Below, piece after piece: positions 5,804 through 30,328 of a stretch of 32,727 nt of DNA (position 1 is its first letter; each line of letters begins with the position of its first letter). Source of the DNA: a virus; the IMG/VR virus record IMGVR_UViG_3300007640_000130, positions 1-32,727 of that record, one strand, 5' to 3'. Below the pieces are notes generated by a model. The model searched no databases. It saw only the letters and a list, made by a program, of their open reading frames with translations, and was not told where the DNA came from. Both the position numbers and the translations under genes were made by a program.

Positions 5804-8800
5804 ATGATACAGACTGGTTTTGAATCTAGAGTTAAGGTTCAGCAGATTATTGAGAGCCAACTTCCAAGTTTTATATTGGATGAAAATCCAAATGCCTCCG
5901 AGTTTTTAAAGCAATATTACATATCTCAAGAATATCAAGGTGGTCCGATAGACATTGCGGAAAACCTTGATCAATACTTAAAGTTAGAAAATCTTGTACC
6001 AGAAGTAGTTGTTGATAGCACTACGCTGTCTTCCAACATTAGTTCAAGTGCAACTAGCATTTCTGTATCAAGTGTCAAAGGTTTCCCAAATAAGTATGGT
6101 CTTTTGAAAATTGGTGATGAAATTATCACCTATACTGGAATATCTGGAACAACATTTACAGGGTGTGTTCGTGGATTTAGTGGTATTACCGATTACCATC
6201 AAGATTTAAATCAGGAAGAACTTACATTTTCCACCTCCTCTGCGGCAGAACACTCTTCTGGTGCTAGTGTACAGAATTTAAGTTCTCTGTTTTTAAAAGA
6301 ATTTTATCAAAAATTAAAATATACTATTGCACCAGGTTTAGAAAAGACTGATTTTACAACAAGTCTGGATGTTGGAAATTTTCTAAGCGAAGCAAATTGT
6401 TTCTACAAAGCAAAAGGAACGGACGAATCGTTCAGAATTCTATTTAATGTTCTTTATAATGAAACTCCAAAAATTATAAATTTAGAACAATATCTGATTA
6501 AACCATCTTCTGCAGAATATGTAAAGCAAGAAGTAGTAATTGCAGAGTCGATTTCTGGGGATAATCCTCTCAATCTTGTAGGTCAGACTATAAAAAAATC
6601 CACAGATGAATCTACTAGTGCATCTGTATCTTCAATAGAAACTTTTAATAGAAACTCTCAACAGTATTATAAAATTTCTTTGTTTGTTGGAAATGATGAA
6701 TTTCCTGCGATTGAGGGTAATTTTACAATTACTCCAAATACAAAAACAACTAATACGGCATCTACATCTTCATCAGTAATTACCGTCGATTCTACCATAG
6801 GATTCCCTGATAGTGGAACTTTTGTATGTGGAAATAACACCGTTACTTATACCAGTAAGTCAATCAATCAATTCTTGGGATGCTCTGGTATCAGTGAAAG
6901 CATAGGGAAGAACGCACTGATCAGAAATAATGAAATATATTTTGGATATGAAAATGGTGATATCACTAAAAAAGTAGAATTTAGAATTCTTGGAGTATTA
7001 TCAAGTTTTGTACCAACTTCAGAAGACATCAATGTTTCTGAAAACGATATTATAACCATCAAAAATGTTGGCGATTTAATTAAGAATCCACAACAAAATA
7101 AAACATACAAACAAACATTTGCAAATTCTTGGATTTATAATACTGCTGCAAGATATCAGGTATCAGAAATTGGTTCTAACTATGTCTTGTCTAGCAATAT
7201 TGATAGATCTAGTTTAAAAGTTGGCGATAGAGTTGAGCTATTAGAAAGAGATACTGAGATTTTAGCAACAGAAAGTGATAATCCACATATTGCAGAAATT
7301 ATTTCTAGTAATACGATAAGATTAGAAGGTTCTTTTACAGTAGATTCTAGTAAAGAATATGATATAAGAAGAAAGATTAATACTGCAAGTAGTTCTGCTG
7401 TTCCAATTGAATATGGAAATGATTTAATTACTTCAGATGTACAGAATCTTTATAGCGACAAAGATGACTTTGCATATGTTGCATCAAATTCATTACCATC
7501 CTCCGCAATTTCTGGATTTACTCACACGTACAGATATAATGTAACGAGTAATATTAAAAGTGCTACTCTATCTTCACAAAATGATCTCTTTGATTCCGAT
7601 TCTGATGGAAATTATGGAACCATAGGTTTTTCTAATAACGCTCCATTTTTAACTGGCGATAGAATATATTATCAACCAAATTCAACACCACTGGTTGGTC
7701 TAGAAACTGGTAGTTACTACGTTGAGGTACTTCCATCTAATAATAAAAGAATAAGACTTTATTCTTCAAGATCTTTTATCGATGGTTCTAGTTTCTTAAA
7801 ATTCAGCGTACCAGAATCTGGATTTGATACTCAGACTTTTACTTTATATTCGCATAGATCTGGAGAAATTGGAGTACAAAAGGTACTTAAAAAGTTTCCT
7901 CTTCAAGCAAAGATAGAAAGTCCAGGAGAAGAGACAATTTCTGGAACAACTGGAATGTTAATCAATGGAGTTGAAATTAGTAACTATAAGTCTCTGGATA
8001 AAATTTACTATGGACCATTACAATCTATTGATGTATTGAATGGCGGAGAAGATTATGATGTAATTAACCTTCCCACACTGACAATTTCTTCGGGTTCCTC
8101 AAATGCTTTGGCACAACCTGCTATTGGTGGATCAATTAAAGAAGTTTACATAGATTCTCAAGATTATGATATTGAAAAAGTTGTTTCTGTTGACATTGTA
8201 GGTGGAAATGGATCTGGTGCTGTACTAGAACCTGTTGTTAGCAAAAGAGTTAGAGATATACTATTTGATGGTAGAACTGCAGCAAATGGTGGTGGAATAA
8301 GCACAACTGGAAACAGAATTTCGTTCTTAACTGATCACAATTTAAATAATGGAGATCAAGTAGTATACAATTCAAATGGAAATTCTCAAGTTGTAATTGG
8401 ATCTGGTTCTTCGACTCTTATTACTAACACATCATACTTTGTAAAAATTGAGAACAATACTACAGTCAGTTTGTTTAAGTCTTTATTAGACTACACAAAC
8501 AATACAAATGTAATAGGATTTTCAACTGGAACTCAAGGAGTACATAAGTTTAGTACAATTGTACCGAAAAATACTATTTCTGAAATTAAAGTAATAGATG
8601 GTGGAAGTGGTTATACTAATAGAAAACTCATTGTAAAAGGTTCTGGAATATCAACAGTTAGCGATTCTGTCAATTTTACCAATCATGGATTTAATACTGG
8701 CGAATTAGTTACATATGACTTCCAAACCAGTGCTATTTCCGGTCTTTCAACATCTAATCAGTATTACATCTTAAAGATCAATGATGATTCTTTCAGATTA

Positions 8801-11800
8801 TGTAATGCTGGTATTGCCGGAACAGATACCTCAGAATTTGATAGAAAAGATTATGTCAAATTCTCAAATACTGGATCTGGATATCAATATTTTGCGTATC
8901 CATCTATTTCAGTTTCAGTAAAATATAATCCAGTTGGTTTTAGTACTGGAACTCAATCCTATCAAGAGATCGTAGCAACTCCAGTCGTAAGAGGAACTAT
9001 TCAAGATGTATATCTTTATGAGCAAGGAACTGGATATGGTTCTACAGTATTAAATTATCAAAACAATCCTACTATAACAATTAAAAATGGAAAGAATGCT
9101 TCCATAATTCCAAATATATCAAATGGTCAGATTATTTCTGTAAATATTCAATATAGTGGGGACGAATATTATTCATCTCCAGATTTGATTGTCACAGATT
9201 CTTCTGGTTCTGGATCTGGAGCAAAACTTAGACCAGTAATTTCTGGTGGCAAAATAACTGATGTTAAAATTATAAACGCTGGAATTGGTTATTCAAGCAC
9301 ATCTACATCTATTTCTGTAAGATCTGCAGGTATCAATGCTCTTCTGAGTCCAAAAATTAGAGAGTTGACAGTAAATAATAATATTAAATTTGGAAATGAA
9401 GTTTTACTAGAGTCAGACAATAAGATAAAGTATACTGTTTCTGCATATTTTGAAGATCTAAGAGACTCCTTTGGAGAAAATAGTGGAAATATATCAGGAA
9501 TAATTGGATGGGCTTATGATGGAAATCCAATTTATGGACCTTTTGGATATTCTGATCCTAAAAATTCATCATCATCAATAACTCGAATGTCATCGGGATA
9601 TGTTTTAGATACTTCTTACACCGATAGACCTTCTGGATTCTCTTCTGGTTTCTTTGTAGAAGACTACAAATTTACAAATTCTGGTACTTTAGACAGATAC
9701 AACGGTAGATTCTGCAAAACTCCAGAATTTCCAAACGGTGTTTATGCGTACTTTGCATCTATAAATTCATCGGGAGATCCATCATTCCCATACTTTATTG
9801 GCAATGATTACAGATCTAAACCACTAGATGAAAATACAACATTAAATCAGTCTTTCGATTTTTCAAATTCAAATCTACTTCGCAACACTTTGCCATATAA
9901 GGTAGCAGATAAGAATGCTAAGTATGACTTCATCTCCGAAATAGATGATATTACTCAACAGCAAATAATTATTGAATCTGTTACTCGTGGAGGAGTAGAA
10001 AGATTTGACATTAAAAACTCTGGATCAAATTACAAGGTCAATGATATTTTAGATTTCAACAATAATGGAACTAGTGGTGGTGGAGCATATGCTACTGTCT
10101 CTTTTGTTGAAGGTAAAAATATTACTGAAGTAAACACGACAGTAACCGCTTATGAAAATTCTATATTTACGTGGGACAATGGCAAAAAAGTAAAAGTATC
10201 AATTTTGCCAAATCATGATCTAAATGATGGTGATTATGTAACTATTTCTGGTTTTTCAACCAACCTCTCCACTCTTAATGGGACACACAAGATAAAAGTT
10301 GATACTAAAAATTCAGTTGCTATTTCTACTATTCCTTCAACTGCAAGTATTGGTGGAACTGAGATTTATGTTTCCAGAATTCCCGAAAATATTTCTGTTG
10401 GAAGTAGCGTTGGAGTAGGAACAGAAACCCTGAGAGTTTTAGAACTCTTCAGAAACCAAAATATCATTAGAGTAGAAAGAGGTGTAACTGGAACATCACA
10501 TGATGCTAATTCTGCACTGTCGTTTACACCAGATTCATTTACTATTGACAGCACTGTTGACTTTTTTGATTCTAAGGTAAATGATAAAATTTTCTTCAAT
10601 CCAACAGAATCTGTAGGATTTGGAACAACTCCAGGCAACTCTTACTTGGCAACATTTGATTTTGGAGACAAGATTGGCGTACAAAGAAGTATACCTACCA
10701 AGTCAATTTACATTGAAAATCACCCATTTAATAATAATCAACAAGTTACATACACTGCTAATGGAACAAATGTTTCTATTTCTACAGATGGCGTAAATGT
10801 CAGCACTCTACCATCCACACTCTTCATTATTAACAAAGGTTCAAATCTGATTGGTCTAAAAACTAGTTTAAATTCTGAAGAGTTATTCTACCATAGTGGT
10901 GGATCTAACAGCGACTTGTATTCCTTTGAATCATCATATACACAAGTACTTGGAAAAGTTGAAAAGATAAAGACTACTGTATCTGTATCTACTTCTCATC
11001 AGATGTCTGTAAATGATACAGTAGAATTGGTAGTAAAACCAAATCTTTCTGTAGGAATCGGAACATCTACAGCAGTAAGAATTGCAAGAAACACAACAAC
11101 AGGAAACTTATTAATCAACCCCATAGGTTTCAATTCCACAGGAATTAATACAAACAACAATTCAATTACTCTCAATAATCATGAATTAAACACTGGAGAT
11201 AAAATTTATTATTCTTCCGATAGTGTTGCATCTGGATTAAGCACTGGTCATTACTATGTTTTCAAGGTTGATTCTAATACTATCAAACTCTCAGAGACAT
11301 ACACAGATTCTCTAACCATTCCACCAACAGTGGTAAGTATTGCGGGAACAGGTGGCATTTCTCAGACAATATCCCCAATCAATCCAAAATTAGAACCTGT
11401 AAAGAATAACAACTTAGTATTTGATTTAAGCGATTCTTCTTTATCTGGATATAAATTCAAAATTTACAGAGATAATCAGTTTAAGGATGAATTTGTTTCT
11501 ACTGGATCAACATCCACATTTAATATAAGTGGTGTTGGAACTATTGGTGTATCGACTGATGCATCCTTAACGATCAATCACAGTGTTAACATACCAGAAA
11601 AACTATACTACAATTTGGAAAAATCTGGATATATTAGCACCGCAGACACGGATGTAAAAGACTATTCGGAAATATCTTTCATCGATAGTGTATATAATAG
11701 AAAATATAGTGTTGTTGGAGTGGCAACAACATCATTTGATTTAGTTCTCAATAAAGTTCCTGAAGATACATCATATGCTCAAAGTGATTGCGATGAGTTG

Positions 11801-14800
11801 AAATATACAACATCATCTACGACTGCAAGTGGTGGAATTAGTAAACTCAAAATCGTTTCTAATGGATATGGATATAAAAATCTTCCAGTTGTAGATGATA
11901 TTACTACAAAAAATGGTAAAGATGCTTATATACTTGCCAAATCCAATCAAATTGGCAATGTAAAACAATCAAGAATCAAAAATGAAGAGTTTGAGTACTC
12001 CTTTGATCCTACTCTAAATCCAACTGCTTACATATCTCCAAATATTGTTACAAAGAATTCAAATACTTTAGAATCTGTATCAGTCAATAATCGCGGAAGA
12101 GGATATACTCAAGCACCAGACATTATAATTGTAAATCCAGATACCAATGAAAAAATTGAATCTGGACTTTTAACGGCAAATTTAATCGGAGAATCAATTC
12201 AGTCGGTAACAATAGAAGAAAATCCAAAAGGTCTTCCAGAAGATTCTGTTAGATTATTGACCATCAACAATACAAATGGAATTAGTATTCAAAGAGTAGA
12301 GTCCAGTTCTACTGGTATATTCACTTGTGCAATAACCGTACCCACATCAGGGTTTACAACTTTCCCGTTTGCCTCTGGAGATGCGGTATTCGTTGAAGGT
12401 ATACAGAAGTTTAGTTCCACTGGTTCTGGATTTAATTCTGAAGATTATGGATATAAATTGTTTATTGTCGATAGTTACATTGAAGCATCTCCATATCATA
12501 AAGTTGTATTTGACTTATCTGATGTTTCTAATGGTGGACTGACCACTAACACTGGTATTGCCAAAACAATACAAGATGGTTATGGTTCTTTGATCCATGA
12601 AGATGATTATCCAACTTTTGAAGTTACACAAACTAGACTTCAATTCAATATTGGAGAGCAACTTGTTTCAGATAACACCGCAAGAGATTTGTTTGTCTCT
12701 GACTATGAAGGTACAATATTGAAAGTTTCTGGAACATATGAATTAAGTCTAAATGAAGTTATAACCGGAAGAAATTCTGGAACTGTAGCAACTATTAATG
12801 AAATAGAAGTTAATTCTGGAGTCTTTAGAGTATCCTATTCTATTTCAAAAAATATAGGATGGTCTGATGAGATTGGTAAACTAAATTCTGATACTCAGGT
12901 TGTTCCTGATAATGATTACTATCAAAATCTTTCATATTCTATAAAGAGTAGCAAAGAATATAAGGAAGTAGAGTCAAAAATCAAACCAATTTTACACACT
13001 AGCGGTTTGAAAGATTTTGCTGATACTGGAATTACTTCCACTTCTGATGCATACGCATCAGAAACATTTAACGGAATCGATGGAAGCACTGTTATCAGAG
13101 ACTTTGTAGATGATCTTAGAGTTGATACAATTTATGATTTTGATTTCGCTCAAGACATTGATATCAACCCAACCACAGGAAATTCCAAGTATCTAAAATT
13201 ACTGAATACCAAGTTAACAGACTATACAAAAAATATTGGAAATGATGTCTTACCAATAGACGATATTAGTAGTCAGTTTTCATATTTTGAAGATGATCCT
13301 AGCACATATTTAAATCTTATTAAATTAGATCCTTCAATTACCTATGATAATTTCTTAATTAGAATTACAAATAGCGATAATAGCGAAATTCAATTTACCG
13401 AAGTCGTTTTACTAAATGATGGAAGTAATAATTATTTGGTAGAGAAAGGAAGTTTAGTCAACGTTGGTGTTGGTACTGCACATGAAATTGGCGAACAATA
13501 TGGAAGTGTTTCTATAGTAGTTGATGCATTTAATGACAGTTATTTGAGATTTATTCCTGTTGATGCATATGATACAGACTATGATCTGAAAATCGTAAGA
13601 AACACATTTACATCTTCTGCAGCAGGAGTAGGAACAACTTCTATTGGATTTACAAATCTTGTAAGTTCTACTGGAGTTACAACTTCTGGAGTGACTACCA
13701 GCATAGCATCGTTTAGCGTAAGCGAATTTGAATCTCTATATGCAAATGTTGAGATAATCAATGATACTACAAACGATATAAACTTTGTAGAGTTGTATGT
13801 AGGAACTGATGGCACTAATACCTATCTTTCAGAATATTACTTTGACTCAGAAAGCGATACACCTCTCTCTAATAATTTTATAGGTACGTTTGGAGCAGAT
13901 CTTTCTTCGGGTGTTGTTTCTCTGAACTACACAAACACATCATCATATAATAATACATATAGAGCAAAGGTTGTTGGTTTTGGCACAACGTCAACTGGTG
14001 TTGGAACCCCCTATAGATTTAAGTTAAGCAGACAACCTGCAGGTTCTGAAAGAACCGTACTGTATCAATCTGACTTTACTGTCGGTGTTGGAACAACTAG
14101 TATTGTATCGATAGACAAAACATTATTCAACTCCGTAAAATCTTTGGTAGAAGTAAGTATTGGTTCTACTAAGGCTCTTCATCAGGTAATGATGATACAA
14201 GATAGTAGCGATGTTTATGTTCAGCAATCAGCATTACTGAGTATAAGTGGTGATTCTCCTTCTGATAGTGCCTTAGGTATAGGAACATTTGGTGGAAACA
14301 ATTCTGGATCTAACTTAGAATTGGAATTCTATCCAGATTCGGATTATTCTACAGATAATATTGTCTTATCTGCATTTAGTCAATGCTTCTACAACGATTT
14401 AGACGTTGCAAATGTACCTCCAGACCTCGAATATGGAAAGGTTGAGGAATCTGTTGATTTAAAATTCTACAATTCAATAAATGGAGATAGAATTAATAGG
14501 ACCAATTTTACATTAACATCCGAAGGAACACCAATCTTTGTTAAGGTATTTGATCCAGAGAATACTGATGCATTAATTGCAACCACTGGCAAATTTACTA
14601 TTAGAAATCACTTCTTTAAAGATGGAGAGGAGTTAATCTATACTCCAAAATCATCAATTGTTGGAATTGCAACTACTGCTATGACATACAGTAATGTATC
14701 CAGTGGCGTCTCTGATCTTTTACCATCCACAGTTTTTGCTGTTGTTAGCGATCTAAATTATGATGAGTTTTTCATATCGACAACAAGAAGTGGAACTGCA

Positions 14801-17474: not shown

Positions 17475-19001
17475 ATGGCTGCTGTCGTAACAGATCAATT
17501 TAGAATACTGAATGCTAATAATTTTGTCGATTCCGTTCTAGATAATAATAATTCATATTATGTGTTTTTAGGTTTGCCGAACTCATCGGTTACTGGATTT
17601 GGCAGAACGTCTACTTGGAGTACCGCATCCAGTGGTCCTCCAAGTCCTACTGATAATTTACAATACTTGTCTCATTATAGAGACACTGGATTGTTTGGAA
17701 AAAGAATTACAAGCACTAATATTAGAAGAGTAATAAGAAAAGTTCAGTGGACGACAAATACTGCCTATGACATGTATAGGCATGATTATAGTTCTTCTAA
17801 TCTTACACCAAATTCTGGAACAAGTAGATTATATGATTCAAATTACTATGTAATTAATAGTGATTTTAGAGTCTATATTTGTATTGATAATGGTTCTTCT
17901 GGAACTAATGTAAAAGGAGAAAGATCTAAATTTGAACCAACATCCACAGATTTGCAACCATTTTCTGCAGGATCTGACGGATATTTGTGGAAATATTTGT
18001 TCTCCATTTCACCAAGTGATGTAATTAAGTTTGACTCCACAGAATATATTGTGGTTCCAAACGATTGGGACATTTCAACAGACACACAAATTCAATCTGT
18101 TAGAGAAGCAGGAGATTCTGATACAAATAACAATCAGATTAAAAAAGTTTATATTGAAAGTGGTGGAACTGGATATTCTAATGGAACATATGATATTTTA
18201 GGTGATGGAAGTGGCGGCAGAGTTTCTATTACAGTTGACAGTAATGGAACTATTACTTCTACTAGTGTTGTTACTGGAGGAAAAGGATATACTTTTGGAA
18301 TCGTTGATTTGGAAAGAACCGGAACCATTTCAAGCGCAGCAAATCTTATTCCAATCATTCCACCATCTAAAGGACATGGTTATGATATTTACAGTGAACT
18401 TGGAACTGATAGAGTTTTAGTTTATTCTAGATTTGATGATTCAACTAAAGATTTCCCCGTCGATACAAAGTTTGCTCAAGTTGGAATTGTAAAAAATCCT
18501 AAGGAATATGCTGGTGTTTCCACGTTTACAGGATCAACTTATTCTGGATTGTATGCATTAAAACTTGATGCTGGATATACTGGTACACCTACAGTTGGAG
18601 AAACTGTGTCGCAAACACAATCTTCGACAGATATTGCAAAGGGATATGTAGCTTCATATGACAGCACTACAAAAGTTTTGAAATATTTCAAAGATAGATC
18701 TTTATTCCTTACAAATGGTGTAAATCAAGAGGATAGAACAACCATTGGCGTAAACTCCAAAGTTGTTGAATTTAATAATAGCGATAGTATAACCTTCACC
18801 ACAGCATCTAGCACCACTGTATCTGCAGGATTTACTGGAAGTTCAGTAAATGGAACAAATTTGGGAATTACTTTCACAGGTGGTCTTGCCAATCCAGAGA
18901 TAAATAAAAAGACGGGGGACATTATCTACATTGATAACAGACCCGAGGTTGAAAGAAATCTTAGGCAAAAAGAAGACGTTAAAATCATTCTGGAATTCTA
19001 A
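17475..19001 (+). CDS. 8: Baseplate wedge subunit gp8
   Basis: The 508-aa product has the gp8-type start (ITD-like VVTDQFRILNANNFVDS, then YYVFLGLPNSS) and the strong signature DGYLWKYLFSISPSDVIKF (about 169-187) followed by YIVVPNDWD. T4 gp8 is 334 aa and forms wedge dimers that bind gp7 and gp10. The extra length is explained largely by a GxGY module insert (about 220-285: SGGTGYSNGTYDILGDG and VTGGKGYTFG). The C-terminus (IIYIDNRPEVERN) matches the expected gp8 end pattern. The stop is followed after 5 nt by the next giant gene. Late expression from the box at 17448 is likely. Confidence 0.85.
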   Translation: MAAVVTDQFRILNANNFVDSVLDNNNSYYVFLGLPNSSVTGFGRTSTWSTASSGPPSPTDNLQYLSHYRDTGLFGKRITSTNIRRVIRKVQWTTNTAYDMYRHDYSSSNLTPNSGTSRLYDSNYYVINSDFRVYICIDNGSSGTNVKGERSKFEPTSTDLQPFSAGSDGYLWKYLFSISPSDVIKFDSTEYIVVPNDWDISTDTQIQSVREAGDSDTNNNQIKKVYIESGGTGYSNGTYDILGDGSGGRVSITVDSNGTITSTSVVTGGKGYTFGIVDLERTGTISSAANLIPIIPPSKGHGYDIYSELGTDRVLVYSRFDDSTKDFPVDTKFAQVGIVKNPKEYAGVSTFTGSTYSGLYALKLDAGYTGTPTVGETVSQTQSSTDIAKGYVASYDSTTKVLKYFKDRSLFLTNGVNQEDRTTIGVNSKVVEFNNSDSITFTTASSTTVSAGFTGSSVNGTNLGITFTGGLANPEINKKTGDIIYIDNRPEVERNLRQKEDVKIILEF

Positions 19002-19006: not shown

Positions 19007-22000
19007 ATGGCACAAAAAACAGACTTAAATATCAACCCCTATTTTGATGATTTCGATTCGGGTAAAAACTTTTACAAAGTCTTATTTAAGCCAGGATATC
19101 CAGTTCAGGCACGAGAACTAACGACGTTACAATCAATATTACAAAATCAAATCGAATCTTTTGGAAGTTATACTTTCAAAGAAGGAACAGTTGTAATTCC
19201 AGGTAATATTGCATATGATAGTCAATTCTATGCGGTAAAACTAAATTCAACTACTTTTGGTGTTGATGTAGCTCTTTACATCGACAAATTTATTGGCAAG
19301 AAGATAACGGGTCAAACATCAGGAACTACGGCAACTATTCAATATGTCGCTCTTCCAGATGGATCAAATGTAGAAGACACTACGATTTATGTAAAATACG
19401 TAGATTCTAACGACAATTTTGTTTTTGATCAGTTTGAAGATGGCGAATCTTTATATGCTGATGAAAACGTAACTTATGGTAACACCACGATCAATTCTGG
19501 AACTCCATTTGCATCTTTAATTAGTTCCGATGCAACTTCTATCGGATCTGCTGCATCAATAGGAGAAGGGGTTTACTTTATTAGAGGATATTTTGCTAAT
19601 GTTTCTAAACAAACAATAGTATTAGATCATTACACAAATACACCATCATACAGAGTAGGATTAACAATACAAGAACTTCTTGTAAATGCTAAGGATGATT
19701 CTTCTTTATATGATAACGCAAAAGGATTTACAAACTTCTCTGCACCAGGTGCAGACAGACTGCAAATTAATTTAACATTAACCAAGAAGTTACTAACTGA
19801 TACTAACGATACAGACTTTGTAGAACTTCTTAGAGTAGAAGATGGTAAAATAAAGAAAATTGAGAATAAAACTCAACTTAATAGACTTGGAGATTATATT
19901 GCAGAAAGAACTTATGAAGAGTCTGGTCACTATGCACTAGAGAATTTCAAATTATCATTACATAATTCTTTAAATGATAAATTGGGTAATGATGGTTTAT
20001 TTTTCAACAATCAATCAACAGAGCAATTGAACACTCCATCAGAAGATCTGATGTGTGTAAAAGTTTCTTCTGGAGAGGCATATGTTGGAGGATATAATGT
20101 TGAAAAGGTTGCAAATACGATTCTTGACGTAGAAAAACCAAGAGATACTGCAACAGTATCAACAACAAATATTCCCTTTGAAATGGGAAATCTTCTAAGA
20201 GTTAATAATGTATCTGGTGCTCCAAAACAAAAAGAATCTATTGATCTTTATAATCAATTTGCTGGTGGTGGAACACAGATTGGTGATGCCAGAGTCTATA
20301 CATTCAACTTAACTGGTTCTGCATATCAGGATGCATCTACAAATTGGGATCTATATCTTTATGATGTTCAGACTTATACATCTCTTACACTAAACACACC
20401 AGTAGCACCTTTAGGTCTTATAACCTCTTCTTATATTAAAGGAAAGAGTAGTGGTGCTAGTGGATATGCCGTTTCTTCTGGATCTGGAAGCACAGTAAGT
20501 ATTAGACAGACTTCTGGAACTTTTGCTGTAGGAGAGCAACTCATTATTAATGGAATAGATGCTTCTGCTACAGTTGCATCAGTTATCGTATATGGAACTA
20601 GAGATATCAAGTCAGTTTCTCAGTCTGGTGTTTCTGGATTCCCATCATTTACTGCAGATTCTTTACTAGATTCTACCAATCTTCCAAATGGTGTTATTGG
20701 TGGAACCATCAGTGGTGGAAATACTCTTGTAAGTCCAGGAAAAGTGTTCACAGGCGTTAAAGTCGGTGACATTATCAGATATCAAACTGCCTCTGGCGAT
20801 GAAACTTTCAACAGAGTTACAGCAAACAATACAACATCTTTAACAATCGCAGCGTCTACAACTGTTTCTGGTGTTCATGTAGGAACAGTTTCTAATGGAA
20901 CATATTCGCAAATCAAACTTGGCGTTCCAGCACTGAGAAATCAAGATAAAGGATATCTCTATGCAGAACTTCCTGATTCGAACATCGAATCAGTAAATCT
21001 TTCTGGATCAACTTTAAAAATATCGGAACAGATTACTGGAGAAAGTACAGATTCATCTGGAGTATTAACTTTTGATCTTTCATCAATTAGTGGAATTTCT
21101 AGTGCGTTTTTCGATCCATTCGATGAAGAAAGATATTCTGTACACTATACTGGTGGTGGAATTGGTACAGTAACATCCGATGCGTTTTCAATTAGTGGCA
21201 ACACAGTAACCATTAATGGTTTGACCGCATCGCAGTCTAGTATTGTTGTTAATACTTCTTTGACCAAAAATGGAATTCAAAGTAAGATAAAAGATTACAC
21301 AAGAAGTTCTACAGTAGACGTTGTTTACTCTAAGTATGGACAGTCTGGTGTTGGTGTTAATACATCAATTAATGATGGTTTAACTTACAATACAAATTAT
21401 GGTTTAAGAGTTCAAGACGAAGAAATTTCTTTGAATTGGCCAGATGTAGTAAAAGTTCTCGCTGTTTTCGAATCTTTAGACGAAAATGCGCCAACTTTGG
21501 ATCAAATTCAATTCTTTGATACTGCAGTTGTAAGCAATGCTATTATCGGAGAAAATATAGTAAGTTCATCAAGCAACGCCATAGCAAGAGTTGTTGCTAA
21601 ACCATCTTCACTTGTTTTATCCGTTGTCTATTTAAATCAAGACAGATTTATTAACGGAGAAACGGTAACACTTGAAGAGTCTAATAACACTGCTCCAATT
21701 CAGTCTCTAACAAAAGGTTCCTATAAAAATATAACATCATCTTTTGTCTTAGATAAGAGTCAGAAAGATCAGTACTATGATTATTCAAGACTTATCAGAA
21801 GTGTAAATACTCCTGTTCCATCCAGAAGATTGAAAGTTGTATTTGATCATTATACAATTCCTGCTTCAGATAATGGAGATGTATACACAGTTTTAAGTTA
21901 TGGCGAGGATAGATTTGCCGAAGATATTCCTTCCATTGGACCAAGAAAGGTAAGATCTACAGATACACTTGACTTTAGACCAAGAGTATCTCAGTTTACT

Positions 22001-25000
22001 GTAACGGATAAATCTCCATTTGACTTCGACTCAAGAAGTTTTGGAACATTACCAAAACTTATCTTAAAACCAAAAGAAAGTTCACTTATTGGATATAATT
22101 ATTACTTACCAAGAATCGATAAAATTTATCTTGATACTTTTGGAAACTTTATTGTTCAAAAAGGTATTTCTGGTGTAAATCCAAAAGTTCCATCAAATAA
22201 CAATCCAGATGGTTTGATGGATCTGGGAACAATTTCTCTCCCAGCATATCTTTATGATCCTAGCGATGCAGAAATTTCTCTTGTAGATAATAGAAGATAT
22301 ACAATGAGAGATATTGGAAATCTTGAAGATAGAATTGAAAATCTTGAACGTGTAACATCTCTCTCGCTCTTAGAAGTTAACACTCAAACTCTTCAGGTTC
22401 AGGATGCATCTGGAAATAACAGATTCAAGACAGGTTTCTTTGTTGATGATTTCAAGAACAACTCTTTGATTAACCTGGATATATCTTCCATAGAGGTAAA
22501 TACTGACACTCAAGAATTAACAACGATTGTTAGCGATAATTCTCTCAAGGGACAAATCGCACCTTCAACAGACATTACTGATGAGAATTTAGATATTTCT
22601 ACAAACTTTGATCTATTAGATTCTAACGTCCAAAAGACTGGAAGTGCTATTACTTTAAAATATACAAATGTTGGATGGATCGAACAACCATTAGCAACAA
22701 GAGTAGAAAATGTAAATCCATTCCATGTTGTTTCATATAATGGATTTGTAAAACTATCTCCATCTAGCGATAGTTGGGTTAGAACAGTTAGACTTCCTGA
22801 GTCAAATTCAACTATAACAAGAAACGTTCCAGATCCAAATCGTGCGGGAACGACTGGAACTTTTGTTACCTCCAGAGATGTTGTTGTATCTTCTGGTAGA
22901 GATGCATACATGCGTTCCAGAAATACACAGTTCTATGCAAATAACTTAAAACCACTTACAAGATTCTATCAATTCTTTGATGGAAATGGCAGTGTTGATT
23001 TTATTCCAAAATTACTTGAAATTGCCAATGATAGCACTTTGGCAAATTATGGATCAGTAGGAGCATTTGAAGTAGGAGAAACTGTAATTGGTTATAATGA
23101 TGGTGAGTCTGTAATTTCTTTCAGACTTTCATCTGGAAATCATAAAGAAGGCGCATTTAATTCTCCATCAAAAACTTTCAATATAAATCCATATGCAAAG
23201 TCAGAGAATTTATCTGTTTCATATAGTCAGTCAACTAAAGTTCTGAATGTTGATACATTTGCACTGTCTGAAGAAGCACAAGGTAAGTATTTTGGATATG
23301 TCAAAATTGGAACAAAACTAGTCGGTCAGACTAGTGGCGCTGTTGCATACGTCAAAGATCTTCGCTTGATTAGTGATAATTATGGAGATCTTTTAGGTTC
23401 ATTCTTCTTGAGAAATCCATTAGAAGTTCCAGCTCCAGCGGTTAGAATTACCACAGGAACTAAGACATATAAGTTGACAAACAGTTCTACAAACGCTGCT
23501 CCTCTTCCTGGAAGTAAGTTACAATCTACTGCAGAAGCAGCATATAAGTCTGAAGGTAGATTTGAAGTTCGTCAACGTCAAACTACAAGAGTAACTGCTA
23601 ATTTCTATGATCCATTAGCACAATCATTCAGTGTAGGTGGAACAATTGATGCGCCAGATTTAAATGGTCAGAATAGCGATGCAAATGGTGCTTTCTTAAC
23701 AGCAGTTGATCTCTTCTTTGCTAACAAACCATCTGGTAATGATCCAGTAAGAATTGAAATTAGAACTGTTGAATTGGGAACTCCAACCAGAACTATTATT
23801 GGAAGTCCTGCGGTATTGAGACCTAGTGACATTACAACTTCAACAAATGGTGCGACAGCAACAAGAGTAACATTTGATTATCCAATTTTCCTGGCACCAG
23901 GTCAAGAATATGCAATCGTTGCTGTAGCAGAAACTACAGACGAATATGAACTTTGGATAGCAGAAATGGGAGAGAAGACTGTAAGCACACAATCTTTACC
24001 TGATGCAGAAGCAGTCGTATATTCCAAACAATTTGCTCTTGGAAGTCTGTTTAAGTCTCAAAATGGATCTATTTGGACTGCTAACCAGTATCAAGATCTT
24101 AAGTTCAAACTTTATAAAGCAAACTTTACGTCAACAACTGGAACGGCATTCTTCTATAATCCAACATTAGATGAAAGCAACGGATATGTTAAAAAATTAA
24201 ATAATAATCCAATCACAACTTTACCAAAAACAGTAACTCTTGGAATCACAACTACAACTGATACCAATGCTATTGGAATTTTAACGACAGGAAGAAAAAT
24301 TGCTGGTTCCAATCAATTTGGTTATGGTTACATCATAGGAACTGGAAGTTCTGTCGCAAACGTTTCTATTACTGATGGTGGAGAAAACTATGTAACTGCA
24401 TCCAATTTAGAAACTACATCTATTGTTGGTAGTGGTTCTGGACTTAGACTTAGTATTACCGCAGCAGACGGTGTTATTACTGGAATTGCTGGAACAACAG
24501 TTACAGGAAATGGATATCAAGTTGGCGATGTTGTTGGCATCGTAACAACTCTTGGTAGAGATGCTAGAATTACAATTGATTCTATTACCGGATTAGATAC
24601 TCTCTATCTTTCTAATGTACAAGGCGAAAAAGGAACATCTAAGACTTTCAAAGTTGGTGCTGCAGTAAGTTACTATAATGATTCTGGAACGGTTGTTTCT
24701 CTTGCAAGCACGACGATTACCGATAGAACATCTGAAGGTGGAGGATTAAATTCCGGAAATTACTTGAGAATAAATCACTTTGATCACGGAATGTATTCCT
24801 CTACTAACAAAGTAGTAATTTCCGATGTTGAACCAGATGTTCCTTCCACTACATTATCTTCTAATTTGACAATAGATGAAACAGCAACTATAAGCATTGC
24901 TAGCACTGCAAACTTTGGAACCTTTGAAGGTCAAACAGTATCAGGATCTTATCTTGGATACGCAAAGATTGGCGATGAAATTATTTCTTACAGTGCTGTT

Positions 25001-26095
25001 GGTAGTGGAACTCTTACCATAAGTTCAAGATCAGTAGAAGGAGTTGTTCAACCACATTCCTCTGGTTCTTTGATTACCAAGTATGAACTAAATGGAGTAT
25101 CTCTTAGAAGAATTAATGGCGTAACACATGATGTAAGTTCTTTATCTAACGATATAGATCAATATCACGTCCAAATTGACATGTCAACCAATGGTTCCGA
25201 TAGATCTAATGATGGAGATACGTCTGGCACTCCTCAACTGTCCTTCAATTCCGAAGCATCGGTAGGTGGAGAAAACTGCAAAGCAACCGAGAACATCCAG
25301 TTTAATGAAATTGTTCCTAACTATGATATCTTAACTCCAGGATCTTCAACATCGGTAACTGCTTCTGTAAGAACAACTACAGGAACAAGCGTAGACGGAT
25401 CTGAAACATCATTTGTTGACAATGGTTTTGAAAGTGTTGAACTCAATGAGGTTAACAGATTGAATTCTGTCAGACTTGTAGCATCTAATATTAATGAAAC
25501 AACAAGTCTTACAACTCTTCCAAGAAATAAGTCATTTACGACTGGTATTACTTTAAATACAGAGGACTCTAATCTTTCTCCAATCATTTATACCGATACG
25601 GCGTTTACCGAGTTTAGAATGAATAGATTGAATAGTCCTATTTCGGATTATACCTCTGATAATAGAGTAAATTCTCTTCTATTCGATCCACATGCAGCAG
25701 TTTATGTTTCAAATACAGTAAATCTTGCACAAGAAGCTTCCTCTCTCAAAGTAATACTTGCTGCTTATAGACACGAATCTGCTGATTTCAGAGTTCTCTA
25801 CAGTTTAATTAGGGCAGACTCTAGTGAAGTAACACAAGAGTTTGAGTTGTTCCCTGGTTATGATAACTTGACCATAGGTGCTGATGGAACAATTACTCCT
25901 GTTGATGCATCAAAGAACAGTGGAAGACCAGATACATTTGTTCCAGCAAGTCTGGAAGATCAGTATCTTGAGTATGAGTTTACAGCAGATAATTTAGATT
26001 TGTTTACTGGATATACCATTAAAATCGTAATGTCTGGTACTGATCAGGCACATGCTCCAAGGATTAAAGACCTTAGAACTATTGCGCTGAGATGA
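19007..26095 (+). CDS. DUF4815-type giant baseplate/tail structural protein, 2,362 aa (gene 9-10 position)
   Basis: The N-terminus is typical of DUF4815 phage structural proteins: NPYFDDFDSGKNFYKVLFKP, then PVQARELTTLQSILQNQIES and a TFKEGTVVIPGN strand. A mid-protein short coiled coil follows RRYTMRDIGNLEDRIENLER (from about 1095). Near 1535 there is YDPLAQSF and then a VDLFFANKP ... VRIEIRTVE region. An 'AKIGDEIISY' module sits near 1986, shared with gp7. In T4 this position holds genes 9-12; here one large protein seems to take much of that role, probably linking wedge to fibres. I do not give it a T4 number because direct homology to gp9 or gp10 is not visible. Its stop overlaps the start of the next gene (ATGA). 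Confidence 0.75.
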   Translation: MAQKTDLNINPYFDDFDSGKNFYKVLFKPGYPVQARELTTLQSILQNQIESFGSYTFKEGTVVIPGNIAYDSQFYAVKLNSTTFGVDVALYIDKFIGKKITGQTSGTTATIQYVALPDGSNVEDTTIYVKYVDSNDNFVFDQFEDGESLYADENVTYGNTTINSGTPFASLISSDATSIGSAASIGEGVYFIRGYFANVSKQTIVLDHYTNTPSYRVGLTIQELLVNAKDDSSLYDNAKGFTNFSAPGADRLQINLTLTKKLLTDTNDTDFVELLRVEDGKIKKIENKTQLNRLGDYIAERTYEESGHYALENFKLSLHNSLNDKLGNDGLFFNNQSTEQLNTPSEDLMCVKVSSGEAYVGGYNVEKVANTILDVEKPRDTATVSTTNIPFEMGNLLRVNNVSGAPKQKESIDLYNQFAGGGTQIGDARVYTFNLTGSAYQDASTNWDLYLYDVQTYTSLTLNTPVAPLGLITSSYIKGKSSGASGYAVSSGSGSTVSIRQTSGTFAVGEQLIINGIDASATVASVIVYGTRDIKSVSQSGVSGFPSFTADSLLDSTNLPNGVIGGTISGGNTLVSPGKVFTGVKVGDIIRYQTASGDETFNRVTANNTTSLTIAASTTVSGVHVGTVSNGTYSQIKLGVPALRNQDKGYLYAELPDSNIESVNLSGSTLKISEQITGESTDSSGVLTFDLSSISGISSAFFDPFDEERYSVHYTGGGIGTVTSDAFSISGNTVTINGLTASQSSIVVNTSLTKNGIQSKIKDYTRSSTVDVVYSKYGQSGVGVNTSINDGLTYNTNYGLRVQDEEISLNWPDVVKVLAVFESLDENAPTLDQIQFFDTAVVSNAIIGENIVSSSSNAIARVVAKPSSLVLSVVYLNQDRFINGETVTLEESNNTAPIQSLTKGSYKNITSSFVLDKSQKDQYYDYSRLIRSVNTPVPSRRLKVVFDHYTIPASDNGDVYTVLSYGEDRFAEDIPSIGPRKVRSTDTLDFRPRVSQFTVTDKSPFDFDSRSFGTLPKLILKPKESSLIGYNYYLPRIDKIYLDTFGNFIVQKGISGVNPKVPSNNNPDGLMDLGTISLPAYLYDPSDAEISLVDNRRYTMRDIGNLEDRIENLERVTSLSLLEVNTQTLQVQDASGNNRFKTGFFVDDFKNNSLINLDISSIEVNTDTQELTTIVSDNSLKGQIAPSTDITDENLDISTNFDLLDSNVQKTGSAITLKYTNVGWIEQPLATRVENVNPFHVVSYNGFVKLSPSSDSWVRTVRLPESNSTITRNVPDPNRAGTTGTFVTSRDVVVSSGRDAYMRSRNTQFYANNLKPLTRFYQFFDGNGSVDFIPKLLEIANDSTLANYGSVGAFEVGETVIGYNDGESVISFRLSSGNHKEGAFNSPSKTFNINPYAKSENLSVSYSQSTKVLNVDTFALSEEAQGKYFGYVKIGTKLVGQTSGAVAYVKDLRLISDNYGDLLGSFFLRNPLEVPAPAVRITTGTKTYKLTNSSTNAAPLPGSKLQSTAEAAYKSEGRFEVRQRQTTRVTANFYDPLAQSFSVGGTIDAPDLNGQNSDANGAFLTAVDLFFANKPSGNDPVRIEIRTVELGTPTRTIIGSPAVLRPSDITTSTNGATATRVTFDYPIFLAPGQEYAIVAVAETTDEYELWIAEMGEKTVSTQSLPDAEAVVYSKQFALGSLFKSQNGSIWTANQYQDLKFKLYKANFTSTTGTAFFYNPTLDESNGYVKKLNNNPITTLPKTVTLGITTTTDTNAIGILTTGRKIAGSNQFGYGYIIGTGSSVANVSITDGGENYVTASNLETTSIVGSGSGLRLSITAADGVITGIAGTTVTGNGYQVGDVVGIVTTLGRDARITIDSITGLDTLYLSNVQGEKGTSKTFKVGAAVSYYNDSGTVVSLASTTITDRTSEGGGLNSGNYLRINHFDHGMYSSTNKVVISDVEPDVPSTTLSSNLTIDETATISIASTANFGTFEGQTVSGSYLGYAKIGDEIISYSAVGSGTLTISSRSVEGVVQPHSSGSLITKYELNGVSLRRINGVTHDVSSLSNDIDQYHVQIDMSTNGSDRSNDGDTSGTPQLSFNSEASVGGENCKATENIQFNEIVPNYDILTPGSSTSVTASVRTTTGTSVDGSETSFVDNGFESVELNEVNRLNSVRLVASNINETTSLTTLPRNKSFTTGITLNTEDSNLSPIIYTDTAFTEFRMNRLNSPISDYTSDNRVNSLLFDPHAAVYVSNTVNLAQEASSLKVILAAYRHESADFRVLYSLIRADSSEVTQEFELFPGYDNLTIGADGTITPVDASKNSGRPDTFVPASLEDQYLEYEFTADNLDLFTGYTIKIVMSGTDQAHAPRIKDLRTIALR

Positions 26096-26308: not shown

Positions 26309-26316
26309 TATAAATA
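26309..26316 (+). promoter_or_regulatory. T4-type late promoter TATAAATA before the fibre genes
   Basis: This is an exact late box in the 55-nt gap between the coiled-coil gene and the 112-aa gene. It ends 28 nt before the next ATG. It probably starts the transcript for the fibre-neck-terminase run, where all later genes are separated by 12 nt or less. Confidence 0.7.
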
Positions 26317-26344
26317 TCTAAAGGAATACTAATCGTTTGAAATA

Positions 26345-26683
26345 ATGGCAATTTATGTATCCAATATTGTAATTGAGCAAGGATATGATTTTGACACTTC
26401 CTTTCAATTGGAGGATACTAGATCAAATTCTTATTTGGACTTAACTGGATCATCAGTCTCAGGACAAATCAGGAAACATTATGGAGCATCTACATCTGTA
26501 TCCTTTGGATCAACAGTAACTGATGCACTATTGGGAATTATATCTATTTCTCTAACTGCTAGTCAATCGGCAGACTTGAAACCTGGTAGACATGTATACG
26601 ATTTAAAAATAATTTCTGCTGCTGGTAAAGAGTTTAAAGCGGTGGAAGGATCAGCATTAGTAAGAGCAGGGGTAAGTAGGTAA
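26345..26683 (+). CDS. Virion-type small beta-rich protein, 112 aa
   Basis: The protein starts MAIYVSNIVIEQGYDFDTSF and has alternating strand patterns (LDLTGSSVSGQIRKHYG, LLGIISISLTASQSADLKPG, HVYDLKIIS). This resembles the small beta-sandwich seen at the N-terminus of phage baseplate-upper/fibre-adaptor proteins, a fold-level impression only. It precedes the fibre gene and overlaps it by 1 nt (TAATG), which suggests that the two products act together, for example as a fibre connector. It is conserved in cyanophages (recalled). Confidence 0.65.
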   Translation: MAIYVSNIVIEQGYDFDTSFQLEDTRSNSYLDLTGSSVSGQIRKHYGASTSVSFGSTVTDALLGIISISLTASQSADLKPGRHVYDLKIISAAGKEFKAVEGSALVRAGVSR

Positions 26684-28059
26684 TGACTAATCTAAACGAT
26701 AGAATAGGTTCGCAGAACGTAATTCGCGTATTATCCAACGCTTCTGCACCACCATCACGATTAGTCAACTTAACAGATGTAAATTCATCTTTAAAGGCAA
26801 AGGATGGTTTAATCTTAGTTTGGAATGCTTTGGATGAAGTATTCTACATGACGGATACAATTGATTCGTCATCTTTAATTGCAACAGGAATAGTAACATT
26901 CTCAAACACCACAGAATCAACTTCAACAACTACTGGTGCAGTAATTGTTAGTGGTGGAGTTGGAATTGCCAAAAATTTAAATGTTGGTGGAGATGCAAAA
27001 ATAGTCGGTGTCGTAACATTTGGCACTGGCACTATAGTTGTTGATGGAACTAATGAGGTAATAACAGTTGGTTCTTCCGTAACTATAAGTTCGGCAGATG
27101 GAATTACAACACCATCTATAACTGTTTCCGGAAATTTAAATGTTGCGGGTGTAACTACACTCGCCTCTTCTGGCGGAATTACAACTACTGGCGGTAGTCT
27201 CTTTGTAAATAACAATCTAACCGTTGGTCGAAACTTAAAAGTAGATGGCACTTCAGAATTTATAGGTGTTGCCACATTTAGAGGTGGGACCATAAATCTT
27301 GGCGATGCCGCCAGCGATGATATCAACGTAGGTGGCGAATTTGTATCAAACTTAACTCCAAATGATGATGCAACCTATGATTTAGGTATTGAAGGGAAGC
27401 GTTGGAGAAATGCAAGATTTTCTGGTCTTGTAACAACAACAGATTTATATGTTTCTGGAGTATCGACATTTATTGGTGATATTAATATTGATGGTGGAGT
27501 TGATGTTGATGGCGATTTAGAGATAGATAATCTTAATGTTTCTGGTCTTTCCACATTTACTGGCGCTGCAGATTTTAATGGCGACATTGATGTTGATGGT
27601 CATGCAGAACTAGATAATCTTAATGTTTCTGGAGTTGCAACATTTGCCCAAAATGTTGAGATTACTGGAAATCTTACTGTCAATGGAACTCAAACTGTTA
27701 TAAACACCAATATACTTGAAGTTGAGGATATTAACATTGGTATTGCTTCTGCAACACCAAAATTAAGTGATGCCGCACTAGATGGTGCAGGTATTACTAT
27801 TCATGGTCTTGCTGGAGATAAGACTCTCACTTGGGATAATTCAAACTCTCGTTTAGCATTTAATACTGACGTTTATGCACCAAATTATTATGCAGGAACA
27901 TTTGACGGTCCAAATGGAATTGCGTACTTTGACGATACTGGAAAACTTGTTGGTGCAGCAAGCACACAGTCTGGTGTAACCACCACTAACTACATTCTGA
28001 CTACAAATGCCAGCGGACTGCCGGTTTGGACGACAACCATTGATGGAGGAGAGTACTGA
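26683..28059 (+). CDS. Tail fibre-like repeat protein, 458 aa
   Basis: The N-terminus (LNDRIGSQNVIRVLSNASAP, then LVNLTDVNSSL) is probably the attachment part. Residues of about 75-330 are low-complexity beta repeats: GGVGIAKNLNVGGDAKI, LYVSGVSTF, LNVSGLSTF, LNVSGVATF, with 29-aa spacing between the last two units. Such repeats form trimeric beta shafts. The end (NGIAYFDDTGKLVG ... PVWTTTIDGGEY) is a typical cyanophage fibre C-terminus. No S74 chaperone domain is visible. Start and stop overlap the neighbours by 1 nt each (TAATG and TGATG). The product is probably a short fibre or a whisker-like fibre; receptor binding is inferred. Confidence 0.75.
   Translation: MTNLNDRIGSQNVIRVLSNASAPPSRLVNLTDVNSSLKAKDGLILVWNALDEVFYMTDTIDSSSLIATGIVTFSNTTESTSTTTGAVIVSGGVGIAKNLNVGGDAKIVGVVTFGTGTIVVDGTNEVITVGSSVTISSADGITTPSITVSGNLNVAGVTTLASSGGITTTGGSLFVNNNLTVGRNLKVDGTSEFIGVATFRGGTINLGDAASDDINVGGEFVSNLTPNDDATYDLGIEGKRWRNARFSGLVTTTDLYVSGVSTFIGDINIDGGVDVDGDLEIDNLNVSGLSTFTGAADFNGDIDVDGHAELDNLNVSGVATFAQNVEITGNLTVNGTQTVINTNILEVEDINIGIASATPKLSDAALDGAGITIHGLAGDKTLTWDNSNSRLAFNTDVYAPNYYAGTFDGPNGIAYFDDTGKLVGAASTQSGVTTTNYILTTNASGLPVWTTTIDGGEY
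27500..27673 (+). repeat. 87-nt tandem repeat in the fibre gene (two units)
   Basis: The 13-mer at 27500-27512 recurs at 27587-27599. A 22-nt block at 27524-27545 recurs exactly at 27611-27632. Both offsets are 87 nt, that is 29 codons, so the reading frame is kept. This is a recent in-frame duplication within the shaft. Confidence 0.7.
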
Positions 28060-28898
28060 TGGCAAAACCAAGCACAAGACAGGGACTGATTGATTATTGC
28101 CTAAGAAGACTTGGTGCTCCAGTTTTGGAAATAAATGTCTCTGATGAACAAATTGATGACTTAGTAGATGATGCTATTCAGTATTTCAACGAACGGCATT
28201 TTGATGGCGTCGAAAAAATGTACTTAAAGTACCAAATAACTAGTGATGACCTTGCTAGAGGCAAGGCTAGTGGAACAAGTGGTGTTGGAATTGTAACTAC
28301 AACAGGAACTTCTACGATTGTAGGAGCAGCAACTACTTTTAGTTTTTATGAAACTTCAAATTACATACAAGTTCCAGATTCTGTTATTGGTATTGAAAAG
28401 ATATTCAAATTTGATACCAGTTCCATTTCTGGTGGAATGTTCAGTATAAAATATCAACTATTTTTGAATGATTTGTACTATTTTAATTCCGTAGAATTAC
28501 TTCAGTATGCTATGGTCAAATCTTACTTGGAGGATATTGATTTCTTATTAACAACAGATAAACAAGTACGATTTAACAAGAGACAAGATAGACTTTATTT
28601 GGATATTGATTGGTCAGCACAAGCAGCAGGAGACTTTTTAGTTATCGAATGTTACAGAGCACTGGATCCAGCATCTTTCACTCAAGTTTACAATGACAGT
28701 TTTGTTAAGCAATATCTTACCGCACTTATAAAGAGACAGTGGGGTCAAAACTTGATAAAATTCCAGGGCGTAAAACTTCCTGGAGGAACAGAGTTAAATG
28801 GAAGACAATTGTATGAGGATGCATTAAGAGATCTTGATGAAATAAAACAGAGAATGTCTTCTGAATATGAATTACCACCAATGGATCTAATTGGATAA
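28059..28898 (+). CDS. 13: Neck protein gp13
   Basis: The 279-aa product (T4 gp13 is 309 aa) has the conserved neck start RQGLIDYCLRRLGAPVLEIN and DLVDDAIQYFNERHFDGVEK, a central YYFNSVELLQYAMVKSYLED helix and a late LTALIKRQWGQNLIKFQG motif. gp13 and gp14 seal the filled head and bind the tail. An insert of about 30 residues rich in Gly/Ser/Thr (ASGTSGVGIVTTTGTST, about 70-90) looks like material from the fibre and gp7 modules. The start overlaps the fibre stop by 1 nt, and gene 14 begins 2 nt after the end. Confidence 0.88.
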   Translation: MAKPSTRQGLIDYCLRRLGAPVLEINVSDEQIDDLVDDAIQYFNERHFDGVEKMYLKYQITSDDLARGKASGTSGVGIVTTTGTSTIVGAATTFSFYETSNYIQVPDSVIGIEKIFKFDTSSISGGMFSIKYQLFLNDLYYFNSVELLQYAMVKSYLEDIDFLLTTDKQVRFNKRQDRLYLDIDWSAQAAGDFLVIECYRALDPASFTQVYNDSFVKQYLTALIKRQWGQNLIKFQGVKLPGGTELNGRQLYEDALRDLDEIKQRMSSEYELPPMDLIG

Positions 28899-28900
28899 TC

Positions 28901-30328
28901 ATGACATTAAATCCCTTCTTTCTTCAAGGATCAGCTGGCGAACAGTTCCTTATTCAGGATCTGATAAATGAGCAGTTGAAAATATATGGCATTGAAGTAT
29001 ATTATTTGCCAAGAAAAATTTTTAAAACTGATGATATTATCAGAGAAATACAATCATCCAAATTTGACGATTCTTTCATAATTGAAGCATATCTGAATAA
29101 TTATGATGGATATGCTCCTGGAAGCGACTTGATGACCAAATTTGGATTGAAATTGCAAAACGAAATTAGTTTAACAATTTCAAAAGAGAAATACGAAGAA
29201 TTTATTGCTCCATTTTTGGAAGGTATTAGTGCTGGTATTAGAGAGGGTAGAATTACAGAATATACTTTTGCAGATTTAATTACTAGACCCAAAGAAGGAG
29301 ATTTAATTTATTTTCCACTTGGAGAAAGGTTATTTGAAATCAAAAGAGTAGAACATGAAAAACCTTTTTATCAATTGGGTAAAAATTATGTTTATGAGTT
29401 AAGTTGTGAACTTTATGAATATGAAAATGAACTTATTGATACATCCATCGATGAAGTTGATTATGCTGTAAGTGATGAGGGATATAGTACAACCCTTAGA
29501 CTTGTTGGTAGTGCAACCACAGCAACGGCGACCATTAGTGGAATATCTACATCTACATCATCTATTGGTAGAATTGTTTTATCAGATGATGGAAATGGAT
29601 ATACAAGCACACCTACGGTAACAATTTCTGCGCCAACTTCTGGTACAACTGCAACTGCAGTAGCGATAACAACATCTGTGGCAAATGTTCAATCCATAAA
29701 AGAAATAAGATTAACTAATGCTGGTTCTGGATATACATCAACAAATCCACCAACAGTAACGATTAGTGGGGGTGGAGGATCTGGAGCTGCAGCTACTGCA
29801 GTTGTCACTTCTGGAGGAATTTTAGGATTCACAATAACAGAATCCGGAGTTGGATATTATGGATCTGTCCCAACAGTAGCAATTAGTACATCACCAACGG
29901 GTCAAAATGCATCTGCAACTGCCGTCGTTTCTGGTGGCAAACTGACCGCAATTCAAATTACAAATGCTGGTTCTGGATATACATCAATACCAACGGCAAC
30001 CATTTCTTCACCAACATCTGGGATTGGAACATTTGTTTATAATGAACTAGTTACTGGGCAATCTTCTGGTGTAACCGCAAGAGTTAGAAACTTTACCAGA
30101 AGAACTAGTATTGAAAATACTCCAATAGACATGGAAGTATCTATAAATACTGGTAATTTCTTGGTTGGAGAAACCATTACTGGTAGTATATCAACAACTG
30201 CATCATTTATAGTTCAATCTTATAATAGAGAAAGTTTTGATAATCCATATGATGTCAATGAAGAGATAGAAACTGAAGCAGATAGTATTTTAGACTTTAC
30301 AGAGTCTAATCCATTCGGAGATTATTAA
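28901..30328 (+). CDS. 14: Neck protein gp14 with a large repeat insert, 475 aa
   Basis: The first 190 residues are a typical gp14 (FFLQGSAGEQFLIQDLINEQ, LKIYGIEVYYLPRKIF, RLFEIKRVEHEKPFYQLGKN). T4 gp14 is only 256 aa. The extra length begins near 195: four GxGY units (about 226, 269, 309, 351), each with a strand-rich 'PTVTIS' and a Gly/Ala-rich turn, followed by an 'LVTGQSSGVTARV' segment (about 378). The protein then returns to an acidic tail (NPYDVNEEIETEADS). The insert probably decorates the neck, perhaps as collar material; this is inference. It ends in TAATG, overlapping gene 15 by 1 nt. Confidence 0.85.
   Translation: MTLNPFFLQGSAGEQFLIQDLINEQLKIYGIEVYYLPRKIFKTDDIIREIQSSKFDDSFIIEAYLNNYDGYAPGSDLMTKFGLKLQNEISLTISKEKYEEFIAPFLEGISAGIREGRITEYTFADLITRPKEGDLIYFPLGERLFEIKRVEHEKPFYQLGKNYVYELSCELYEYENELIDTSIDEVDYAVSDEGYSTTLRLVGSATTATATISGISTSTSSIGRIVLSDDGNGYTSTPTVTISAPTSGTTATAVAITTSVANVQSIKEIRLTNAGSGYTSTNPPTVTISGGGGSGAAATAVVTSGGILGFTITESGVGYYGSVPTVAISTSPTGQNASATAVVSGGKLTAIQITNAGSGYTSIPTATISSPTSGIGTFVYNELVTGQSSGVTARVRNFTRRTSIENTPIDMEVSINTGNFLVGETITGSISTTASFIVQSYNRESFDNPYDVNEEIETEADSILDFTESNPFGDY
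29570..30025 (+). repeat. Four GxGY modules in gp14, with a 25-nt direct repeat
   Basis: Four units of about 41 aa are spaced evenly. An exact 25-nt block at 29717-29741 recurs at 29963-29987, both coding for NAGSGYTS. The identity at DNA level suggests recent duplication or gene conversion. The outer boundaries are estimates. Confidence 0.65.
30142..30149 (+). promoter_or_regulatory. Exact TATAAATA inside gene 14, possible internal late promoter
   Basis: The 8-mer is an exact late box. It lies inside gene 14, 178 nt upstream of the gene 15 start. In AT-rich coding DNA such a match can be random, so it is listed only as a candidate promoter for genes 15-16. Confidence 0.25.

Follow-up and report, generated by a model that had tools for sequence, protein, structure and literature searches.

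The modularity of phage proteins is already established. Homologous domains recur in phage proteins that belong to different functional classes, among them those of the tail, baseplate and neck, and ongoing shuffling has been stressed, above all for receptor-binding proteins, endolysins and polymerases (PMC10684548). In T4, residues 178-256 of gp14 bind residues 203-245 of gp15 once the tail is joined (PMC12270204). Among the Kyanoviridae, the gp7, gp8, DUF4815 (VrlC) and gp14 clusters of S-SKS1, S-SRM01 and P-SSM2 have a gene order identical to that of the DNA analysed here, and they carry copies of three modules described below (GxGY, IGDE and GQxSG) at homologous sites.

The DNA (hereafter the window, the whole analysed stretch of 32,727 bases of IMGVR_UViG_3300007640_000130) is a fragment of a T4-like cyanomyovirus. 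It holds a structural cluster in the order gp25-gp6-gp7-gp8-DUF4815-...-gp13-gp14-gp15-gp16, completed by a small tail-fibre-assembly-like ORF and a repeat ORF, with full-length homologues in cyanophages. Four of these genes carry the shared modules:

5804-17452: ORF, gp7 (3882 aa)
17475-19001: ORF, gp8
19007-26095: ORF, DUF4815 protein (2362 aa)
28901-30328: ORF, gp14

Matches to gp7 numbered 465 phage records. The closest named relatives were S-SKS1 and S-SRM01, which shared 51-58% amino-acid identity across gp7 aa 1-2000 and the DUF4815 protein; gp14 was closest to that of the marine single-cell virus AG-345-L05 (63%), and gp15 matched the T4 gp15 Pfam family. With 3882 aa, gp7 was shorter than most of the unsplit references, which ranged from 3001 to 5195 aa. 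Some relatives carry IGDE in gp15, whereas the gp15 of the window does not. The window is an ordinary member of its group. In the references, the gp7 and DUF4815 genes of the S-SKS1 record (L163) were split into several ORFs, being either interrupted or affected by sequencing errors, and S-SSM7 (L174, 1-18656) had two large genes annotated as gp7 (SSSM7_101 and SSSM7_103) that flank a gp9-like connector gene.

Several other features were observed in the window. The GC content was about 60% in positions 1-1030 and then fell abruptly to about 42%, with a GC-rich hairpin-like sequence at about 1000-1030. Short stretches on both sides (1-72 and from about 1036) matched cyanophage genomes; for the ORFs tested in the interval (about 72 to 1036), no PHROG match was obtained. 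The repeat ORF (26683-28059) contained an 87-base tandem duplication at 27449-27622 (74% identical). Its PHROG matches were to head decoration and baseplate proteins, so a further shared module may be present in it. In gp7, a YHYH domain (PF14240) was found within aa 1230-1320 (9491-9763), and by eye another repeat type, 'NSDNSEIQFTEVVLLNDGSNNYLVEKG', was seen in about three copies at about aa 2490-2790 (about 13270-14170).

Iterated profile HMMs were built for GxGY, IGDE, GQxSG and HGF on the window and 11 cyanophage references. HGF (E1_FCCH-like), with six copies in gp7, is a fourth module that was absent from an earlier note on this DNA. None of the four HMMs gave any match when these proteins were shuffled or reversed. 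Together with profile-profile comparison (hhalign), they placed the following modules in the window:

6026-6187, plus strand: IGDE, first copy in gp7 (aa 75-128), HMM i-E 1.3e-21
6749-6898, plus strand: IGDE, second copy in gp7 (aa 316-365), HMM i-E 5.4e-11
7634-7816, plus strand: HGF in gp7 (aa 611-671), HMM i-E 1.2e-13
8012-8098, plus strand: GxGY in gp7 (aa 737-765), HMM i-E 6.6e-6, also by hhalign
8327-8539, plus strand: HGF in gp7 (aa 842-912), HMM i-E 1e-13
8672-8881, plus strand: HGF in gp7 (aa 957-1026), HMM i-E 6.6e-19
8984-9358, plus strand: GxGY modules in gp7 (aa 1061-1185), hhalign to the gp14 block E 2.2e-9, HMM copy at aa 1149
10706-10870, plus strand: HGF in gp7 (aa 1635-1689), HMM i-E 6.4e-9
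11165-11353, plus strand: HGF in gp7 (aa 1788-1850), HMM i-E 3.3e-17
11816-12286, plus strand: GxGY modules in gp7 (aa 2005-2161), hhalign E 2e-7, HMM copy at aa 2088
14597-14827, plus strand: HGF in gp7 (aa 2932-3008), HMM i-E 3.5e-9
15641-16126, plus strand: GxGY modules in gp7 (aa 3280-3441), hhalign E 9e-6
18126-18293, plus strand: GxGY modules in gp8 (aa 218-273), hhalign E 5.7e-7
19277-19444, plus strand: GQxSG in the DUF4815 protein (aa 91-146), HMM i-E 1.7e-19
23291-23413, plus strand: GQxSG in the DUF4815 protein (aa 1429-1469), HMM i-E 1.2e-10
24320-24547, plus strand: divergent GxGY pair in the DUF4815 protein (aa 1772-1847), hhalign E 1.3e-5 and 2.2e-5, 1.7e-5 with separate alignments
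24854-25042, plus strand: IGDE in the DUF4815 protein (aa 1950-2012), HMM i-E 2.1e-17
29561-30022, plus strand: four GxGY copies in gp14 (aa 221-374), HMM i-E 9.7e-4 to 2e-12, predicted all-beta with pLDDT mostly above 80
30032-30184, plus strand: GQxSG in gp14 (aa 378-428), HMM i-E 2.7e-16

The earlier note had counted GxGY about ten times in gp7, twice in gp8, about twice in the DUF4815 protein and four times in gp14. Strict motifs numbered 8 in gp7 (1.4 expected from shuffles), 3 in gp8 (0.23 expected) and 4 in gp14 (0.21 expected). One of the gp7 motifs, at aa 1024, is part of another module, and about three further gp7 copies are degenerate, so that 'about ten' was a fair estimate. The 2 motifs of the DUF4815 protein (0.62 expected) were not above chance, as 129 of 1000 shuffles reached 2, and it was profile-profile comparison that confirmed this weak pair. 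The presence of GQxSG in both the DUF4815 protein and gp14 was borne out by HMM matches and cross-protein detection.

The homology of modules between proteins was seen in several comparisons. HMMs trained on a single protein found GxGY, IGDE and GQxSG in other proteins, although these tests were not fully independent, since the training copies had been gathered with the joint profile. The GxGY HMM trained on gp7 found 32 copies in gp14. For IGDE, detection was strong from the DUF4815 protein to gp7 (2e-7) and weak in the other direction (two matches, best 7e-3). Profile-profile comparison of the gp14 GxGY block, which is free of this joint copy collection, gave 4e-11 with gp7, 6e-7 with gp8 and 1e-5 with the DUF4815 protein (aa 1782-1837; 1.7e-5 with a separate pair of alignments), against 0.85 for gp15 and 0.93 for reversed gp7 as controls. 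Independently, the block was matched by PHROG profiles of several virion proteins, among them gp7, gp8 and tail fibre. GxGY is thus common to gp7, gp8, gp14 and, by profile-profile comparison, the DUF4815 protein; IGDE is common to gp7 and the DUF4815 protein, and GQxSG to the DUF4815 protein and gp14. Judged by these profiles, which do find each other across proteins with clean controls, the modules of the wedge, DUF4815 and neck proteins appear to be homologous and to form shared families of the kind known as domain mosaicism.

Pfam returned nothing for GxGY, IGDE or GQxSG even at E 5. PF16190 (E1_FCCH) resembled gp7 aa 1466-1510 (E 7.5e-6, 26.4 bits) and, weakly, an HGF copy (E 0.012, 16.1 bits), both under the curated cut-off of the family (29.5 bits).

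We placed the module copies of 12 phages, the window and references spanning a dozen genera, on window coordinates via orthologue alignment. The positions of IGDE, HGF, most GQxSG and the gp14 GxGY copies were conserved in almost every one of the 12, and the GxGY sites of gp7 were patchier. The nearest neighbour of a copy was the same site in another phage for IGDE in 38 of 38 cases, GQxSG in 47 of 50, GxGY in 88 of 101 and HGF in 70 of 74. Close reference pairs (S-SM2/Bellamy and ACG-2014f/S-CAM7) favour same-site matches, so every genome pair was also counted: the best match was the same site in 343 of 355 tests for IGDE, 449 of 456 for GQxSG and 638 of 803 for HGF. The corresponding figure for GxGY, a short module that is poorly resolved in site clustering, was 483 of 724, with another protein returned in 91 of 724. 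Copies of IGDE and GQxSG therefore group by protein family across phages, as do those of GxGY for the most part; clustering by genome was not observed, within the limited resolution of GxGY. For four of the 101 GxGY copies, the nearest neighbour lay in a different protein of another phage, and the copy at aa 3706 of P-TIM68 gp7 resembled gp14 of other phages; some old transfer of GxGY between proteins is therefore likely, judging from these similarities.

Exchange inside a genome was looked for in both protein and DNA. When two proteins were compared, their copies were no more similar within one genome than between genomes (P 0.35 for GxGY, 0.35 for IGDE and 0.32 for GQxSG), in a test that would miss single old transfers. 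At the DNA level, the IGDE match between 6107-6132 and 24965-24990, noted earlier by eye, was exactly 21 of 26 bases (KIGDEIITY and KIGDEIISY), and it was explained by the shared peptide and codon usage (21 observed against 21.6 expected, of 27; P 0.79). With codon resampling, the gp7-gp14 GxGY match was unremarkable (P 0.16) and GQxSG showed no excess (P 0.77). Two gp14 repeats shared more bases than expected (P 0.004), a pair that was picked after the fact; across 80 gp14 genes, concerted evolution of the repeats was not found, the same-genome excess being small and of mixed sign. With neither a same-genome excess nor a DNA signal beyond the peptide, exchange inside the genome was not detected.

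Gain and loss were seen in the gp14 of S-SSM7, with an extra GxGY copy and a LamG-like insert, and for IGDE in gp15, where most of its copies across the phage collection were found. It was present in gp15 of S-SM2, Bellamy, P-TIM68, S-SSM7, AG-345-L05 (L175, 7284-8330) and metagenomic relatives (L132, L108 and L151), and absent from the window, P-SSM2 and others. The gp15 genes of P-SSM2 and DSL-LC03 kept similar flanks from which IGDE was gone. A quick gp15 tree required four to five gains or losses, a count that is approximate because one relative, L159, was scored negative by the threshold although, judging from its sequence and length, it probably has a diverged copy. The gp15 copies were mostly nearest each other, with a tie with a gp7 copy for L151. 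This pattern fits one old insertion followed by losses, or transfer between gp15 genes.

The positions of the inserts were compared with T4. Residues 3-181 of the window gp14 aligned with T4 gp14 (E 6e-23), and the core is common to both (PDB 9mkb, 9lu4-9lu7); the window protein has, between this core and a short C-terminal tail, about 250 module residues that T4 gp14 lacks. The N-terminal core was poorly modelled, yet matched T4 gp14 by sequence and by a PDB fold search. The block was predicted to be all-beta with pLDDT mostly above 80, and so was the DUF4815 segment with GxGY and IGDE (mean pLDDT 88). By approximate mapping, the gp14 block starts at about aa 195 of T4 gp14, and the gp15 IGDE insertion lies at about aa 243 of T4 gp15, which places both inserts near the head-tail joint. 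As judged from this alignment, the gp14 block interrupts the C-terminal region that binds gp15 in T4, and it and the gp15 IGDE copies probably lie around the joint. Decoration of the virion surface by the modules is plausible from the same positions.

The PDB sequence search returned T4 gp14 for gp14, one DUF4815 chain (9euf) for the DUF4815 protein and nothing for gp7; AriA matches to gp14 (E 0.76) were taken as chance. The PDB fold search returned nothing significant for the modules themselves. In BFVD, the gp14 model matched many predicted phage proteins, some of them through the neck core. Literature searches found no cyanomyovirus structure showing these modules, and no binding data.

We consider it probable that the modules are old homologous beta domains of T4-type core proteins, inherited in place with occasional gain and loss, and acting as spacers or contact surfaces. 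Small beta-rich domains would have been built into gp7, gp8, the DUF4815 protein and gp14 by duplication or acquisition before the sampled cyanomyovirus genera split, and would since have been inherited at mostly fixed sites, with gain or loss at a few. On this reading they would be rigid beta spacers in an enlarged baseplate and neck, and would provide contact surfaces there.

A glycan-binding role, in which the modules are weak adhesins that attach baseplate and neck to polysaccharide of the cell surface or the environment, is unlikely as the main explanation, but it is compatible with inheritance in place and could coexist with it. Beta-rich modules are commonly adhesive in phages, for example as carbohydrate-binding modules in lactococcal 936 phage virions (PMC6669499). 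The gp14 of S-SSM7 (L169, 30704-32992), a neck protein of 762 aa with an extra GxGY copy, has, within its GxGY block, a nested LamG/concanavalin-like domain that at 26.6 bits is just under the Pfam cut-off of 27.6. The modules themselves, however, matched no carbohydrate-binding family even at E 5 and no PDB fold significantly.

The same nested domain is a candidate accessory insert, as are the lineage-specific inserts of gp7. Length differences of gp7 concentrated at aa 3326 and aa 3706 (about 15780 and 16920 in the window), where references carry inserts of 63-839 aa and 49-374 aa, respectively; their clustering near GxGY copies is a lead only, as alignment software may favour repeats when placing gaps. 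On a speculative reading, to which we give little credence, GxGY and IGDE would together make up a platform common to the head-tail joint and the C-terminal part of gp7. Accessory domains would be inserted into it by individual lineages, giving matched adhesive surfaces on neck and baseplate.

The earlier note had proposed that the shared modules are exchangeable and spread by recombination inside the genome. The sharing stood, by HMMs and profile-profile comparison; the exchangeability did not. An active cassette system, in which recombination copies modules between virion genes of the same genome and diversifies the virion surface, would agree with the sharing among several virion proteins, with the coming and going of IGDE in gp15 between related phages, with the few GxGY copies nearest another protein and with the inserts at two gp7 sites near GxGY copies. 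Against it, copies group by site across genera with no same-genome excess, DNA similarity is accounted for by the peptide, gp15 IGDE copies are mostly nearest one another, and in the loci examined no other protein of the same genome contained a relative of the lineage-specific inserts. We regard this reading as largely refuted and very improbable. It is just as improbable that short glycine/serine/threonine-rich beta repeats are merely alike through composition: the motifs are short and biased, and the DUF4815 GxGY count does not exceed shuffles, but profile-profile E values of 4e-11 to 1e-5 against controls near 0.9, the absence of matches in shuffled or reversed proteins of equal composition and detection by single-protein profiles all oppose it.

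The modules help to explain the much greater size of cyanophage baseplate and neck proteins compared with their T4 counterparts, and profiles are now supplied for three modules missed by Pfam. Besides these profiles, what is new here is the evidence that the sites are mostly fixed and that inserts lie near the gp14-gp15 joint. Shared modules need not imply ongoing shuffling, and site-wise orthology can tell old construction parts from active cassettes; by their sequences, those of the window look like the former, with no sign of still being swapped. As in the domain mosaicism described for phages (PMC10684548), proteins of different function in the window have domains in common; the difference is that its modules sit mostly at fixed sites, where no recent shuffling was seen.
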